A model generated the notes under the pieces. The model was not told where the DNA came from. It saw nothing but the letters and a program-made list of their open reading frames with translations, and ran no database searches. The translations under genes and the position numbers were made by a program. A stretch of 64,000 nt of DNA, from assembly GCA_029932915.1 (NCBI GenBank), contig JAOZPE010000004.1, positions 1 through 64,000 on the forward strand. The letters run 5' to 3'. Positions 6,090 to 47,960 of this stretch are shown here, piece after piece; position 1 is the stretch's first letter, and the number at the start of each line of letters is the position of its first letter. The stretch is from Candidatus Krumholzibacteriia bacterium (GTDB lineage Bacteria > Krumholzibacteriota > Krumholzibacteriia > JAJRXK01).

Positions 6090-6539
6090 TCAGTCCTGGA
6101 TGGTGATGCTGCGCCGGGGCGTCGGATGTGATTTTCCTTTTCGCAGGCGGATGAAGAGGAAACCGGAGCGGTAGGACGCCTTGGCGGTCGAGATGTCCAC
6201 CGATTCAGGTACCCGGATGTGCCGCTCGAAAGGACCGATCTGGATCTCCATCTTGTGGAAATGCTTCTTTCCCGGAGGAGCGATATTCGCCCTCTCCCCC
6301 TTGACCGATATGAGATCGTCTTCGGCGTAGACCTCGATACGCTCACGCTCCATTCCGGCCAGATCCATCTGGATCACCAGTTCGTCTTCGGTCTCGTACA
6401 CATCGGTGGCCGGCCGCCACCCGAGATCCGATTGCATCCCGAAGGCATGCGAGGAGCTGCGGCTGCTGCCGAAAAAGAGTTCGAATGGGTCGTCCAAGGG
6501 ACCGCGTCGTCGGCCCTGGAGATCTTCGGCCTGGAGCAT
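6090..6539 (-). CDS. Hsp20/alpha-crystallin family small heat-shock protein
   Basis: This 149-residue protein carries an alpha-crystallin domain (about residues 40-135) with the typical VYETEDELVIQMDLAGMERE start and a GFLFIRLRKG-type end. Such chaperones hold unfolded proteins for later refolding or degradation, which fits its place directly upstream of lon. The start is the ATG at 6539, six bases after AGGAGG. The open frame extends upstream to 6785, but that extension covers the promoter and has no chaperone similarity. A short tail ending SITIQD takes the place of the usual I-x-I/V motif. Confidence 0.92.
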   Translation of the reverse strand: MLQAEDLQGRRRGPLDDPFELFFGSSRSSSHAFGMQSDLGWRPATDVYETEDELVIQMDLAGMERERIEVYAEDDLISVKGERANIAPPGKKHFHKMEIQIGPFERHIRVPESVDISTAKASYRSGFLFIRLRKGKSHPTPRRSITIQD

Positions 6540-6602
6540 GGAACCTCCTGAATACCCGGCCGGGCGTAAAGGAGTGGGAAGTCTTGCATACGATCTGCCA
6601 GG

Positions 6603-6631
6603 ATGGTAGAAGCGACGTGCGGGATCGTCAA
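6603..6631 (-). promoter_or_regulatory. Sigma-70-type promoter of hsp20-lon-GT9-msbA-waaF
   Basis: On the minus strand TTGACG (6626-6631) and TACCAT (6603-6608) are separated by exactly 17 bases, about 65 bases before the hsp20 ATG. A 10-base palindrome CCCGGCCGGG at 6555-6564 lies in the leader and could be an operator. No CIRCE element (TTAGCACTC inverted repeat) is present. A weaker plus-strand pair TTGCAT (6584-6589) and TAGAAG (6607-6612), also 17 bases apart, could serve the divergent DUF72 gene. Confidence 0.6.
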
Positions 6632-6676
6632 TCTCCGAGGCTGCTCCCAGGACCCCCGAAGCCCACGATCGTTCCC

Positions 6677-7702
6677 ATGACCCAAGCTGCTCAGCCCCTT
6701 CGGCCCCCGTGCCACCGACCCGATCTCTGGATCGGCCCCGCCGGGTGGAGCTATGCGGACTGGAAGGGGCGCGTCTACCCCCCATCCACTCCCTCCTCCT
6801 TCGACTCCCTGCAGTGGATCGCCCGCTTCTTCGACCTCGTCGAGGTCAACGCCAGCTTCTACCACATCCCTCCGGCGCGGCTGGCGGAGAAGTGGGTCAC
6901 CCGGCTCGAAGAGGACCCTCGTTTCCGTTTCTCGGTCAAACTCCACCGCTCCTTCACCCACGACTCCCCTGGAATCGACCCGGCCCGGTCCAGGAGATTC
7001 CTCGACTTCCTCGAGCCGCTTCGGACCGCCGGACGTCTCGGACCCATCCTGGCCCAGTTCCCCTGGTCGTTCCGCCCCACCCGCGAACACCGTGACCACC
7101 TCGCCCGTCTCGCCGAGCTCTTCTTCCCCTTGACCCTGGTGGTGGAGCTTCGCCACGGAGCCTGGGCCCCTGATCGCAGTGGCATCGACTGGAACCAGCT
7201 TGGCATCCACCCGGTGAGCATCGACCAACCACAGGTCGGCGATTCCATCGGGCCGGTTCTCCAGGCCGACGATCGCGTCCAGTACCTACGGCTTCACGGA
7301 CGCAACGAGGCATCGTGGTTCGATCGCAACGCCGGGCGCGACCAGCGTTACGACTACCGTTATCGGGTGGACGAATTGCGCCCGTGGGTGGAGGCGTTGA
7401 AATCCCAGAAGGGAAAGTCTCGTGAGACCTACGTGATCACCAACAACCATTTCCAGGGCAAGGCAGTGGTCAACGCCCTGCAGATGAGAGCCCTGCTCGG
7501 TGAAGAGGTCCCGCACTTCCCCCGATGGTTGGAAGAGGAGTTCCCCGAATTGCGCTCCGAACTCCGCACTGCCGGAGCCACCGACCCGCAACCGCTTTCC
7601 CCTTCCGATACCACCACACCTTCCGATCCTGGAGCCCAGGAACACGAGGCGAAGCGCAGCAGGAAGGAGAAAGCCGACGGGCAGGCCGAGCTGTTCGAGT
7701 AG
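6677..7702 (+). CDS. DUF72 (YecE-like) family protein
   Basis: This 341-residue protein is recognised by the opening IGPAGWSYADWKG, then YPP, the FNRVEVNAS-like VEVNASFYHIP and the internal RFRFSVKLHRSFTH stretch, all typical of the TIM-barrel DUF72 family. The biochemical function of the family is not established. The start chosen is the ATG at 6677; the open frame reaches back to 6485 into the hsp20 promoter and coding region. The last 60 residues are a charged, low-complexity Pro/Lys/Glu tail beyond the usual domain. It is one of only two plus-strand genes, divergent from hsp20 and convergent with the imuB-like gene. Confidence 0.85.
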   Translation: MTQAAQPLRPPCHRPDLWIGPAGWSYADWKGRVYPPSTPSSFDSLQWIARFFDLVEVNASFYHIPPARLAEKWVTRLEEDPRFRFSVKLHRSFTHDSPGIDPARSRRFLDFLEPLRTAGRLGPILAQFPWSFRPTREHRDHLARLAELFFPLTLVVELRHGAWAPDRSGIDWNQLGIHPVSIDQPQVGDSIGPVLQADDRVQYLRLHGRNEASWFDRNAGRDQRYDYRYRVDELRPWVEALKSQKGKSRETYVITNNHFQGKAVVNALQMRALLGEEVPHFPRWLEEEFPELRSELRTAGATDPQPLSPSDTTTPSDPGAQEHEAKRSRKEKADGQAELFE

Positions 7703-7799: not shown

Positions 7800-8918
7800 T
7801 CACGACCCCTCCCGGTCGGCCATCCACAGTTCCGGCGACCACTGCACCGCTCCGTCTCCAAAACGCCTGCGGATCCGGGCGATGAACGGCGCCAGGTCGG
7901 TCTTCACCCGCGCGAAATCGAAGGACAGGGCCTCGGGCGCCGCCCGGCGCAAGCCCCCGACTTCCAGGACACAACGGCTCACCGCCCGCCGTGCCGTCGG
8001 CATCTCCCCCCAGAGCCCCCAGGTACATTCCCGCAACACGGTCAGTTCGGCCGAGGGGGGATCCAGGCGTCGGGACCGCTGTGTGGTCTCCCCTCCGTGC
8101 CGGCGGATCCTCAGCTCGACCCGCCCGGCCTGGAGACCCCTGTCCCTCAGACGCGCGGCCAGACGATCGGCCAGCACTCCCACCACCGAGCGCACCCAAC
8201 CCTCGTCGTCGTACACCGCGGGAAAGACATGATGCTCACGCAGGTACGGGGGGAGCTCGGCAGGCGGCAGGACACTCGAACCCTGACCCCGCGCCTCGCG
8301 CCAGACCTCGAGTGATTCCTCCCCCAGGGCCTCGCGCAGGAGCCGGGGAGGAAGGGCCGCCACTTCACCGAGGGTGTTCAAACCCAATTCCTCGAGCACC
8401 GGCACCCATCGGCTTCGGCTCTGCGGGAGACAGCGCAGGGGAAAGGGGGCCAGGAAGCGCTCGGCCCGGTCTCCTTCCACCTGCCACCACGAGCCCACCG
8501 GTGCCGTCGCCGCGGCCAGACGCGCCACCAGGCGGCTGGAGCCCTCTCCCGCCGCCAGGCTTCCCAGTTTCTCCTCCATCGCCCGTTCCCCGATCCTGCG
8601 GAGAAGGACCCGGCGATCGGGGTACAGGCGCTCACATCCACTCAGATCGAGCAGCGCCCCCCATCGGCCGAAGGTCTCCACCGACGGAGCCAGCGAGCGG
8701 AGGAAACGAACGAAGGCCGGAGGCAGCCCTCCGGAGAAGGCGTCCACCTCGTCGAAGAGAAGCGCCCGTTCCCGTGCTCCCGGCTGCGACGGAAGGCGGG
8801 GAGCCCAGGGACGCAGGACGACGAATGGAGGGGTCGAAGGTCCCGAAGCGGAAATCGGGTGGGAAGGCGGGGTGACATCTCCGCTGAAACGAAGAAAGAG
8901 CAGACGAGGCGTGGACAT
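7800..8918 (-). CDS. ImuB-like, catalytically degenerate Y-family DNA polymerase
   Basis: This 372-residue protein resembles Y-family polymerases. APSVETFGRWGALLDLSG (about residues 76-93) matches the palm motif S-P-x-V-E...D-E-x-x-L-D-L-[ST]-G, but the catalytic Asp-Glu pair is gone. The first N-terminal catalytic Asp (D-x-D-x-F-F) also has no counterpart. A thumb-like helix-hairpin stretch (VLEELGLNTLGEVAALPPRL) and a little-finger-like region follow. ImuB proteins are inactive Y-family members that bring the error-prone DnaE2 to the sliding clamp. It lies three bases after lexA and so is probably SOS-controlled. No ImuA or DnaE2 gene is nearby and no clear clamp-binding peptide ends the protein. 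Confidence 0.72.
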   Translation of the reverse strand: MSTPRLLFLRFSGDVTPPSHPISASGPSTPPFVVLRPWAPRLPSQPGARERALLFDEVDAFSGGLPPAFVRFLRSLAPSVETFGRWGALLDLSGCERLYPDRRVLLRRIGERAMEEKLGSLAAGEGSSRLVARLAAATAPVGSWWQVEGDRAERFLAPFPLRCLPQSRSRWVPVLEELGLNTLGEVAALPPRLLREALGEESLEVWREARGQGSSVLPPAELPPYLREHHVFPAVYDDEGWVRSVVGVLADRLAARLRDRGLQAGRVELRIRRHGGETTQRSRRLDPPSAELTVLRECTWGLWGEMPTARRAVSRCVLEVGGLRRAAPEALSFDFARVKTDLAPFIARIRRRFGDGAVQWSPELWMADREGS

Positions 8919-8921
8919 GTC

Positions 8922-9524
8922 CTAGATGAAACGCCGAAGGATCCCCACCACGATTCCCTGCACCCGCATGGAGTCGGCGGGCACGTGGATGGCTTCGTGG
9001 GCCCGGTTGGCCGGCTCGAGACGCACCATCTTGCCTTCACGGTAGAAGCGCTTGAGCGTGACTTCCTCTTCGTTCAACAGGGCGACGACGATCTCTCCGT
9101 TGCGAGGGTCTTCCCTCTGTTCGACGATCACATAGTCGCCGTCGCGAATGGCGTCTTCGATCATCGAGTCACCCTTCACCCGCAGGACATAGGCCGGGCC
9201 ACGGCCGATCATGTCCTCGGGAACCGCGATGCTCTCCGATCGGGGAACCGCCTCGATGGGCCGGCCCGCCGCGACGGTGCCCAGCAGGGGCAGGCGACGG
9301 GACTTCGAATCGTTCAGACCGACGATCTCGATGGCCCGGCTGCGGTTCCACTGCCGGCGGATGACTCCCTTCGCCTCGAGGGCCTTCAAGTGCTTGTGTA
9401 CGGTTCCCACCGACGAGAGTTGGAAGTGTTCGGCGATTTCTTCGAGACTGGGGGCATAGCCGTTGGCCGAGATGCTCGAGCGCAGGAAATCCAGCAGTTC
9501 AGACTGACGCTTGGTGAGATACAC
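8922..9524 (-). CDS. lexA: LexA repressor
   Basis: This is the SOS repressor, 200 residues from a GTG at 9524. AAGGAGG lies five bases before the start and a strong promoter ends just upstream. The N-terminal winged helix (1-65) is followed by the autocleavage site Ala86-Gly87 in GTVAAGRP, catalytic Ser120 in GDSMIED and catalytic Lys158 in EVTLKRF. RecA-stimulated self-cleavage would release SOS genes. An ATG at 9551 has been passed over because it lies inside the -10 element. The adjacent imuB-like gene follows after three bases and is probably cotranscribed. Confidence 0.96.
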   Translation of the reverse strand: MYLTKRQSELLDFLRSSISANGYAPSLEEIAEHFQLSSVGTVHKHLKALEAKGVIRRQWNRSRAIEIVGLNDSKSRRLPLLGTVAAGRPIEAVPRSESIAVPEDMIGRGPAYVLRVKGDSMIEDAIRDGDYVIVEQREDPRNGEIVVALLNEEEVTLKRFYREGKMVRLEPANRAHEAIHVPADSMRVQGIVVGILRRFI

Positions 9525-9546: not shown

Positions 9547-9575
9547 AGCATAGGCGAAGAAAACAGGAAAGTCAA
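9547..9575 (-). promoter_or_regulatory. lexA: lexA promoter
   Basis: TTGACT (9570-9575) and TATGCT (9547-9552) are 17 bases apart on the minus strand, placing the transcript start about 15 bases before the GTG codon. This is the best-scoring core promoter in the area. Autoregulation is expected, but I see no CTGT-N8-ACAG or GAAC-N4-GTTC LexA box, so the operator of this lineage is not recognisable. Confidence 0.75.
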
Positions 9576-45522: not shown

Positions 45523-47960
45523 CCCTCGGCCTCGAACTCATCGGGCTTGATGAGCACCTCGCGCGCCTTCGATCCCTCGAAGGGCCCCACCACGCCGATC
45601 TCCTCGAGCATGTCCATGAGCCTCGCCGCCCGGGTGTAGCCCACCCTGAGTTTGCGCTGCAGCATGCTGGTGGAGCCACTCTGGGCCAGGATGACGATAC
45701 GGCGTGCGTCCTCCAGCAGTTCGTCCTCGCCCAGATCCAGGGCCCCCCTTCCATCTCCAGGGCCGTCGAGTTCCAGCCGCTGTTCCTCCTCGGCCAGGGG
45801 GATCCAGTGCTGGGCGATCCGTTCGCACTCCTCGGTACTCAGATAGGCGCCGTGGATACGCTGCGGTTGGGTCATCCCGGCCATCAGGAAGAGACTGTCT
45901 CCCTTTCCCAGCAGGCTCTCCGCCCCCATGACATCGAGGATGGTTCGCGAATCGACCTTGGAGATCACCCGGAAACCGATACGCGAGGGGAAATTGGCCT
46001 TGATCACCCCGGTGATGACGTTCACCGAGGGCCGCTGGGTGGCCAGCACCAGATGGATGCCGACGGCGCGGGCCATCTGGGCCAGGCGGGCGATCGGAGT
46101 CTCCAGCTCGGCGCCGAGCAGCATCATCAGATCGGCCAGTTCGTCGACGATGATGACGATGTAGGGCATCGTCTCCTCGACGCGGCGGCCCTCGGCGTCC
46201 TTCACCTTTCCCTGACGCACCTTCGTGTTGTAGTCGACGATGTTGCGCACGCCCTGCCGGGCCAGCTTGTTGTAGCGGACGGTCATCTCCGACACCATGA
46301 TCTTCAGGGCCTTCAGCGCTTCCTTGGCGTCGGTGATGACCGGATGCAGGAGATGCGGAATGCCGTTGTACAGGGACAGCTCCAGCATCTTCGGATCGAT
46401 CATGAGAAAGCGGACCTGATCGGGATCGTTGCGCAAGAGCAGACTGCAGATGAGTGAGTTCAGACAGACGCTCTTGCCGCTGCCCGTCGCGCCGGCCACC
46501 AGCAGATGCGGCATGTCGGCCAGGTCGGCGGTCACCGGCGCCCCCTCGGGATCCTTCCCCAGACCCACGGTCAGGGGAGGGATGGCCTCCTGGTTCACCA
46601 GCGGGCCGAGGACCTCCTTGAGGGTCACGATCTGCGGATAGGAATTGGGGACTTCGATGCCCACCGCCGCCTTGCCGGGAATCGGAGCCACGATGCGGAT
46701 GCGGATGGCGCGCATGGCCAGGGCGAGATCGTCGGCCCGGCTGGTGATCTGGCTGACCTTCACGCCCCGGTCGGGTTCGAACTCGAAGGTGGTCACGACC
46801 GGCCCGGGACGGACCTGGTTGATCCGCCCCTCGATGCCGAAGCTCGACAGGGTCTCCAGCAACAGGCGGGCGTTCATCTGCAGGACTTCGCGGGAGAAAC
46901 CCCGGTTCTCCTTCACCACGTCGTCGAGCAGGTCGAGCGAGGGCAAGGGGTAGCCGCCCTTCCGGCGGCGTCTCCTCTTGACCGGAGTCACTTCCTCGTC
47001 CTTCAACAGTTCACTGGGGTCACGGCTGAGGTGGAACTCCTCGTCCGAGGCCACACGTCTTCCCGGCAGGGTCGGTCCGGGCCGCTCCGTTCCAGGCCCT
47101 TCGGAAAGCTCCTCACCTCCCCCTTCGATGGCGAAGTCCTCCTGCTCGCCTTCGCTCGACACGGGAGTCGCCGGCGCTTCCTCCAGCTCGGCCTCGTCCC
47201 ACGCCCGGCCGGCCTCCTTCCAGTCCTCATCGTCCTGTCCGACGATCCGCGGTGCGGCCGCTTCCTCCTCGGTGGCCCGCCGCGCGGCCTCCTCCCGCCA
47301 CCGTCTCCAGCGGAGCAGGGAAGCGCTCATCGCATCCCAGGCTCCCTGCAGGTATCCGCCGACGAAACGAACGGCACGAGCGAACGGCCCACCCAGGCGG
47401 CCCACCCGCTCGAGCAGGCCGTCGAGCCACGCCAGTTCCAGACGCAGGGGGGGGAGGACGCGGATGACGAGGAAGGCCACCAGACCCGCGGGCACGAGGA
47501 AGGCACCCAACTGACCGAGCACCGCGTTCATCCAGGAGTGCAGCTGCGAACCCACCACACCGCCGGCCATCGGGGGCATGCCCGCGCGGCGCAGCACCGG
47601 ATGGCCCAGCAGCGCCAGGCTCAACAGCAGCACACTGCTGAACCACAGACTCCGCCTCCATGCCTGGCCACGGCGTGAACGCAAACGAAAGGCCCCCAGG
47701 GGCGACCACGCCCAGGGCAACAGGACGAAGAGCCAGCGCAGCCAGGGACCGAGGAGCCAGGTGGCCACTCCGGCCACAGCCGCACCGACCGGACCCACCA
47801 GGGTCCGCTCCCCCATGCCTCCACCGCCCAGGGCCTCCTGGAACGACGCCGGCACCACCATGCCGGCCAGGAAGCACGAGACCGCCACGAAGAGGCTCAC
47901 GAGACTGGAGAGCAGGATCCTGCCCAGGGTGAGGTTGTTCTTCTTCACGTCAGACGACAC
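45519..47960 (-). CDS. ftsK: DNA translocase FtsK
   Basis: This 813-residue septal protein has four or five TM helices in the first 180 residues, an acidic linker (about 235-310), the RecA-like motor with VAGATGSGKSVCLNSL and VIIVDELADLMM, and a C-terminal winged-helix gamma domain (LRVGYTRAARLMDMLEEIGVVG) that reads KOPS-type sequences. It moves chromosome ends through the closing septum. The linker is short, more like SpoIIIE than E. coli FtsK. The GTG at 47960 has a poor ribosome site; a later GTG four codons in is possible. Confidence 0.95.
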   Translation of the reverse strand: MSSDVKKNNLTLGRILLSSLVSLFVAVSCFLAGMVVPASFQEALGGGGMGERTLVGPVGAAVAGVATWLLGPWLRWLFVLLPWAWSPLGAFRLRSRRGQAWRRSLWFSSVLLLSLALLGHPVLRRAGMPPMAGGVVGSQLHSWMNAVLGQLGAFLVPAGLVAFLVIRVLPPLRLELAWLDGLLERVGRLGGPFARAVRFVGGYLQGAWDAMSASLLRWRRWREEAARRATEEEAAAPRIVGQDDEDWKEAGRAWDEAELEEAPATPVSSEGEQEDFAIEGGGEELSEGPGTERPGPTLPGRRVASDEEFHLSRDPSELLKDEEVTPVKRRRRRKGGYPLPSLDLLDDVVKENRGFSREVLQMNARLLLETLSSFGIEGRINQVRPGPVVTTFEFEPDRGVKVSQITSRADDLALAMRAIRIRIVAPIPGKAAVGIEVPNSYPQIVTLKEVLGPLVNQEAIPPLTVGLGKDPEGAPVTADLADMPHLLVAGATGSGKSVCLNSLICSLLLRNDPDQVRFLMIDPKMLELSLYNGIPHLLHPVITDAKEALKALKIMVSEMTVRYNKLARQGVRNIVDYNTKVRQGKVKDAEGRRVEETMPYIVIIVDELADLMMLLGAELETPIARLAQMARAVGIHLVLATQRPSVNVITGVIKANFPSRIGFRVISKVDSRTILDVMGAESLLGKGDSLFLMAGMTQPQRIHGAYLSTEECERIAQHWIPLAEEEQRLELDGPGDGRGALDLGEDELLEDARRIVILAQSGSTSMLQRKLRVGYTRAARLMDMLEEIGVVGPFEGSKAREVLIKPDEFEAEG

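Follow-up and report, generated by a model that had tools for sequence, protein, structure and literature searches.

What does a Y-family protein do when it has lost its active site and its gene lies directly behind lexA? The window, a 64,000-nucleotide stretch of DNA from a Candidatus Krumholzibacteriia genome (G000, 98% complete), contains such a gene. The first-pass annotation suggested that the product may belong to an SOS mutasome, as a reduced or alternative factor with its partner encoded elsewhere. Based on its predicted fold, its conserved link to lexA, and a divergent DnaE on another contig, we reach much the same view, inferring the role from these features: the protein is probably a scaffold for that DnaE.

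The lexA locus

The lexA gene (8922..9524, minus strand) encodes a 200-aa SOS repressor, which scored 209.5 bits against TIGR00498 (cut-off 110.95) and exceeded the cut-offs of both Peptidase_S24 and LexA_DNA_bind. The short gene (7800..8918, minus strand; 372 aa) starts with an ATG at 8918, leaving exactly three bases between it and lexA. Upstream of the pair is a sigma-70-type promoter-like site, TTGACT-17 nt-TATGCT (9547..9575, minus strand), with 9 of 12 matches; one such site was found vs. 0.2 expected in shuffles. The first-pass annotation had described this arrangement of a promoter, lexA, and, three bases on, a Y-family relative of 372 residues, and all of it holds.

In the window, a DUF72 gene (6485-7702, opposite strand) separates the short gene from hsp20-like and lon genes. 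In both the window and a related genome, G032, lon is further downstream with an Hsp20-like ORF (read by eye) in between; the window lon was identified by Pfam. The hsp20-like and lon genes of G032 directly follow the short gene, without the intervening DUF72 gene. Another LexA-like protein is encoded in G000 (contig C29, about 46033-46629; locus L203, 1444-2394, minus strand), on the same contig as recA; it shares about 42% identity with the window LexA. A defense gene was ruled out, as PADLOC returned no match.

Loss of the active site and of the fingers domain

The short protein matches the Pfam model of the Y-family C-terminal domain, IMS_C (44.1 bits, cut-off 20.7). Its match to the IMS palm/fingers model is weak (13.6 bits, cut-off 23.2) and begins at profile position 79 of 148, so that the first half of this model is unmatched. 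Alignment with intact DinB places an Arg at the first metal-binding Asp and Trp-Gly at the Asp-Glu pair, while the D-L-S-G block is present, as the first-pass annotation had read from the translation. Among eight aligned members of the short family, the Arg and the Gly (at the position of the catalytic Glu) are invariant, which suggests that the active site was lost long ago and that the protein has been kept. The middle catalytic position varies (W, R, H, D, G, T, D, D), and invariant residues are distributed over the whole protein.

An active Y-family polymerase has three catalytic acids and a fingers domain; with the catalytic positions and the fingers lost, we ruled out this reading. Could the protein still polymerize or bind nucleotides via other acids? 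One Asp is kept in the D-L-S-G block, but the Arg and Gly replacements in 8/8 members and the absence of fingers make the chance of this practically negligible.

The part of the gene at the fingers position (8733..8876, minus strand; residues 15-62) is predicted to be disordered (AlphaFold2 pLDDT under 50), and the linker there is shorter in the seven aligned relatives than in the window protein. The AlphaFold2 model of the window protein, built from 17 aligned rows, has a mean pLDDT of 79.4 and a pTM of 0.61. Its better-confidence parts are a palm remnant, a thumb (about 149-209), a little finger (about 225-321), and a C-terminal helix, with domain names assigned by comparison with Y-family polymerases. 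The best structural matches are solved Y-family polymerases, including MsDpo4 (E 4e-17, TM about 0.5; Z 19.6, rmsd 5.2, 289 residues aligned). A relative from another genome (L118) is predicted to have a similar fold, with a mean pLDDT of 81.3 and a match to Pol IV at Z 18.1 (rmsd 7.2, 266 residues). DinB rows in the underlying alignments guide both models, so the independent evidence for the fold is the short-family profile alone, which, without DinB rows, matches solved Pol IV (E 8e-17) from chain residue 82 on, past the fingers. Altogether, the palm, thumb, and little-finger domains of the short protein relate it to DinB, and the prediction comes without the catalytic acids or the fingers.

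One family member, in genome G024 (L093, 7356-8297), lacks the thumb through an in-frame deletion of about 60 residues, which is either real or an assembly artifact. Due to this deletion, it was excluded from the protein alignments and the interaction-motif test.

The short family across Candidatus Krumholzibacteriia

We searched 80 genomes of the class Candidatus Krumholzibacteriia with a six-member profile of the short family. Nine genomes scored above 150 bits: G000, G024 (in two stretches), G032, G036, G046, G067, G073, G077, and G078. The next match scored 99.8 bits, and the lower rows, when translated, were DinB- or ImuB-like. Among the loci retrieved with one peptide pattern, no ORF apart from the seven short-family ones scored above 109.8 bits to the profile. 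In all nine carriers, the short gene is directly downstream of lexA, and thus the lexA link reported for the window is conserved throughout the family as found in these 80 genomes. The reading frame is open in 9/9, although the ORFs listed for G073 and G024 begin inside lexA and their true starts are unsure. The carriers belong to two taxonomic families of the class.

In our phylogenetic tree, the short proteins group in a single clade (support 99/95) with long branches, apart from DinB, from five ImuB rows, and from a group of Y-family proteins whose first catalytic Asp is Asn (the D-to-N group, discussed below). Four genomes that we examined, G021, G056, G069, and G076, have no short gene between lexA and the next gene. 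At their lexA loci (L198, L199, L200, and L201), an hsp20-like ORF (by eye) directly follows lexA.

These long branches and absences, together with the G024 thumb deletion and the variability of both interaction motifs (below), are what one would expect of a functionless remnant of a lexA-linked Y-family gene that is decaying and heading for loss. A decaying gene would not be expected to keep an open frame in 9/9 genomes, invariant residues throughout the protein (including two of the three replaced catalytic positions themselves), or a clamp motif in 7/7 relatives, nor to be present in two families of the class. We therefore regard decay as unlikely.

A divergent DnaE and the absence of ImuA

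If the short protein does not polymerize, which polymerase could it serve? Searches of G000 with IMS_C and IMS found no Y-family gene besides the short gene. Two DnaE genes match PF07733. One is DnaE1-like and cut by a contig end; a third DnaE match was counted, perhaps the other end of this cut gene. The second DnaE (1112 aa; contig C21, L036 6534-9872), encoded on a different contig than lexA, is divergent: it scored 837 bits to the DnaE1 model (cut-off 1002) and 667.6 bits to the DnaE2 model NF004225 (cut-off 939), and in the tree it is apart from both the DnaE1 and DnaE2 rows. It keeps PDIDLDF and KIDLL, which we take to be the motifs holding the polymerase acids. It clusters with its counterparts in the other short-family genomes, at identities of 47-59% in one comparison and 54-62% in another.

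The first-pass annotation noted that neither ImuA nor DnaE2 is adjacent to the short gene, and the genome-wide search bears this out: it recovered the divergent DnaE and one RecA gene, with neither ImuA nor a DnaE2 over the cut-off. NF033429, the ImuA model, matched only the RecA gene (44.8 bits, cut-off 150), and a class-specific ImuA profile also found the RecA gene alone (30 bits). With no ImuA, and with the second DnaE below the NF004225 cut-off, a canonical ImuB cassette was ruled out.

This combination recurs across the class. The divergent DnaE clade is present in 12/80 genomes, including all nine with the short protein; in each of these nine, dnaE is on a contig other than that of the lexA-short gene pair. 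ImuA (100 bits or more) was found in 23/80 genomes, none of which belongs to the nine or the twelve, and DnaE2 over the NF004225 cut-off was found in 19/80, again with none of the nine. A hypergeometric test, which ignores kinship, gives P of about 1e-9 for 9/9 falling within the twelve and P of 0.04 for 0/9 falling within the 23. The alternation of systems among close relatives is stronger evidence than these P values. One genus contains both G018, in which ImuA and an above-cut-off DnaE2 were found, and G036, which encodes the short protein and the divergent DnaE. Likewise, within one family, G001-G003 have ImuA and DnaE2 over the cut-off, and G000 has the short protein and the divergent DnaE. 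Related genomes thus hold one system or the other, which amounts to a natural replacement experiment. The DnaE and short-protein trees have nearly equal branching orders, an agreement that species kinship alone could produce.

The association has exceptions. G021 and G056 encode the divergent DnaE, but in both the next gene comes directly after lexA, and the searches recovered no short protein. In G065, which also carries the divergent DnaE, no lexA was found. G069 and G076, with lexA but no short gene, yielded no divergent DnaE either. Outside the class, genome G091 (L060, 7526-12486) has a Y-family gene with Asp-Asp for Asp-Glu and, immediately downstream of it, a divergent dnaE.

A direct-repeat LexA-type box

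The lexA promoters of the class share a direct repeat with an 11-base period, TTTCG N6 TTTCG, which overlaps the promoter. It is similar in type to the direct-repeat LexA box of Alphaproteobacteria, GTTC N7 GTTC. We built a box matrix from ten lexA promoters, leaving out that of the window; G077, whose contig begins inside lexA, and G078 were not among the ten. In the window, the matrix identified a candidate LexA-type operator, TTTCCTGTTTTCTTCGCCTA (9551..9570, minus strand), which has the same direct repeat and period and overlaps the promoter (17.5 bits; 0/300 shuffles as high). The G078 lexA promoter scored 5.5 within 200 bases of the start (73/300 shuffles), with a 16.1 site further upstream.

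When applied to the divergent dnaE promoters, the lexA-trained matrix gave scores of 16.4 to 25.4 in 8/8 genomes other than G000 (0/300 shuffles each), with the qualification that promoters of both lexA and dnaE had been inspected before the consensus for the training sites was fixed. These eight are six short-family genomes, G056, in which the short gene is absent, and G065; with G000 they make up the set tested, and G067, G077, and G021 were left out. Before the upstream regions were extracted, the likely start codon was set manually for several dnaE genes, for recA, and for some lexA genes. The G000 dnaE promoter lacks a forward box (141/300 shuffles as high) but has one weak reversed site 38 bases upstream (7/500 shuffles), and the G000 recA promoter scored 4.2 (21/300 shuffles). 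All shuffles for box scores and for this reversed site resample first-order base steps.

In the G000 genome, TTTCCTGTTTTCTTCGCCTA is the only exact match of a box pattern that had been designed to cover it. The same pattern with at most one mismatch gives 11 sites vs. 8 for a reversed control and therefore defines no regulon. One box-like site (contig C58, 4288-4307) has no plausible gene facing it (read by eye).

Clamp and RecA motifs

The first-pass annotation saw no terminal clamp-binding peptide. This is right for the window protein, which has EALSFDF at the usual place, but it does not extend to the family: Q-x-x-[L/I]-F is present there in 7/7 relatives examined, and G024 has QMNLF at the same place (read by eye). 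The window protein has a RecA-NT-like stretch, IARIRRRFGDGAVQWS, matched as well by 7/1000 shuffles, as one of 42 rows tested. It is close to MDRIRDRFGEGAIKWA of a lexA-linked DinB from Zixibacteria (31/1000 shuffles). No such stretch was detected in the seven relatives (281 to 901 of 1000 shuffles) by this insensitive test, in which the Zixibacterial DinB L166, with a plainly similar stretch, still gave 233/1000 shuffles; non-detection is thus weak evidence of loss. Altogether, the clamp and RecA links may be unequally kept among lineages.

The tails differ as well. The short genes of L114-L120 end in a common tail of about APASExLLxxWGAxW, unlike the window member, and 4/8 aligned short-family rows have a VDG stretch near the end, also unlike the window member. 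The window protein ends 11 residues past the RecA-NT-like stretch, which leaves no possibility of a fused ImuB-C domain. A Pfam scan for ImuB-C was uninformative, as two canonical ImuBs of the class likewise gave no match.

A RecA-NT-like stretch in a protein presumably made with LexA also raises the prospect of a regulator of the SOS switch, which would bind RecA (or LexA) and tune cleavage outside any polymerase complex. That the gene is tied to lexA in 9/9 genomes, and never shares a contig with dnaE, suits such a role, as does the retention of the divergent DnaE without the short protein in G021 and G056. A regulator of this kind would leave unexplained why the divergent DnaE accompanies all nine short proteins, yet occurs in only 12/80 genomes, and why the clamp motif is kept in 7/7 relatives. 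In addition, a lexA-Y-family-dnaE cluster exists within the same class. We consider a regulatory role rather unlikely, though the least so of the alternatives to a mutasome function.

A proposed role in error-prone synthesis

Our preferred explanation, to which we assign a probability of roughly 0.6, is that the short protein, an inactive Y-family member without fingers, is under LexA control and serves as a scaffold for the divergent DnaE, in a system resembling the DnaE2B-iPolY-RecA modules. In this scheme, lexA and the short gene (the iPolY) would form one LexA-repressed unit, and LexA cleavage upon DNA damage would raise the short protein and the DnaE2B-like DnaE from the other contig together. 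The short protein itself would perform no synthesis and would act as a scaffold, its retained thumb and little finger sitting on DNA and contacting DnaE, and its C-terminal region connecting to the sliding clamp (in the relatives) or to RecA (in the window member). The scaffold-DnaE complex would then substitute for ImuA-ImuB-DnaE2 in error-prone translesion synthesis. We infer the operon transcription, LexA binding, physical contacts, and mutagenic role from the genomic features described above; a role in mutagenesis is suggested by gene linkage, shared boxes, and co-occurrence.

Several observations run against the scaffold explanation. The divergent DnaE persists in two genomes in which no short protein was found, G021 and G056, and in G056 its box persists as well. 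The G000 dnaE has no forward box and only the weak reversed site. The motif test detected no RecA-NT-like stretch in the seven relatives, and the window protein lacks QxxLF. Finally, the thumb is missing in G024, though it is a modeled ImuB-DnaE2 contact according to passages of PMC12926913. These counter-examples hold our confidence at the level given.

If the scaffold explanation is true, a very small part of a Y-family polymerase would suffice to organize error-prone synthesis by a C-family polymerase, and the mutasome types published so far would gain a natural minimal scaffold. The system would also give a first picture of SOS control, by a direct-repeat LexA-type box, in an uncultured phylum.

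Comparison with known systems

Like the ImuB of ImuA-ImuB-DnaE2, the short protein has a Y-family fold without an active site and is LexA-linked, and it is reduced, as are some ImuBs: passages of PMC12926913 describe drastic reductions in which the thumb, little finger, and ImuB-C are nonetheless kept. The first-pass annotation's comparison with ImuB is thus apt for an inactive Y-family member, but not for canonical ImuB. Unlike the latter, the short protein has no ImuA in its genome, no room for a fused C-terminal ImuB-C, and no canonical DnaE2 partner over the cut-off, and it forms a separate branch in the tree. One could still argue for a strict ImuB, with an ImuA that was lost or is too divergent to see, from the active-site loss, the lexA link, and the clamp motif of the relatives. 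However, neither NF033429 nor the class-specific profile recovered ImuA, only 11 residues follow the RecA-NT-like stretch, the tree separates the short protein from the five ImuB rows, and the partner DnaE scores too low for the DnaE2 model and does not group with the DnaE2 rows. We find this very unlikely.

Within the class, four genomes of another family encode lexA, a Y-family protein (first Asp to Asn), and dnaE as one cluster (L105, 4369-9571; L106, 3646-9289; L107, 3075-8393; L109, 1074-6623). As at our locus, lexA comes first, an altered Y-family protein is next, and the DnaE is about 38-43% identical to that of G000. Unlike the short protein, these D-to-N proteins keep the fingers and the Asp-Glu pair, with the first Asp alone changed to Asn, and their dnaE is in the cluster. 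Despite the intact Asp-Glu pair, they may be inactive too, to judge from this substitution. Their existence suggests, without proving it, that the now separate short gene and dnaE were once parts of such a cluster. In the lexA-dinB neighbors of Zixibacteria (L131, L137, and L166) and Acidobacteriota (L130), a Y-family gene likewise follows lexA at a distance of no more than about 500 bases; unlike in the short protein, the catalytic residues are intact and the fingers are present.

Passages of PMC6511836 and PMC12926913 describe putative ImuA-less mutasomes that pair an active or inactive Y-family protein with DnaE2, often with lexA, and the short protein with its divergent DnaE fits this published kind. 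The closest likeness is to the DnaE2B-iPolY-RecA modules, exemplified by Streptomyces DinB2 and Geobacter bemidjiensis DinB2 in passages of PMC12926913, which have an inactive Y-family protein, a second divergent DnaE, a genome without ImuA or ImuB, and a proposed RecA contact; G000 also has neither ImuA nor ImuB. Its divergent DnaE may be DnaE2B-like, although the tree that places it had no reference DnaE2B. Unlike these modules, as those passages present them, the Krumholzibacteriia protein is fingerless and coupled to lexA, its dnaE is unlinked, and a RecA-NT-like stretch was detected in the window member only, among eight tested.

The main text of PMC12926913 does not contain "Krumholz," a literature search for Krumholzibacteri with the SOS response gave no match, and matches for Y-family or ImuB proteins lacking a fingers domain concern other polymerases, going by their titles and abstracts. 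As far as the literature searched shows, what is new is the combination, in Krumholzibacteriia, of an iPolY that lacks fingers and is fixed to lexA with a DnaE that is unlinked. Whether it amounts to a separate mutasome architecture of Krumholzibacteriia, in which a lexA-linked fingerless pseudo-polymerase (palm remnant, thumb, little finger, short tail) replaces ImuA-ImuB for an unlinked divergent DnaE and the clamp and RecA contacts are split differently among lineages, is a more tentative proposition, to which we give somewhat less than an even chance. The parts themselves are ordinary, a Y-family protein, LexA, and DnaE, and their arrangement is unusual, conserved, and reduced.
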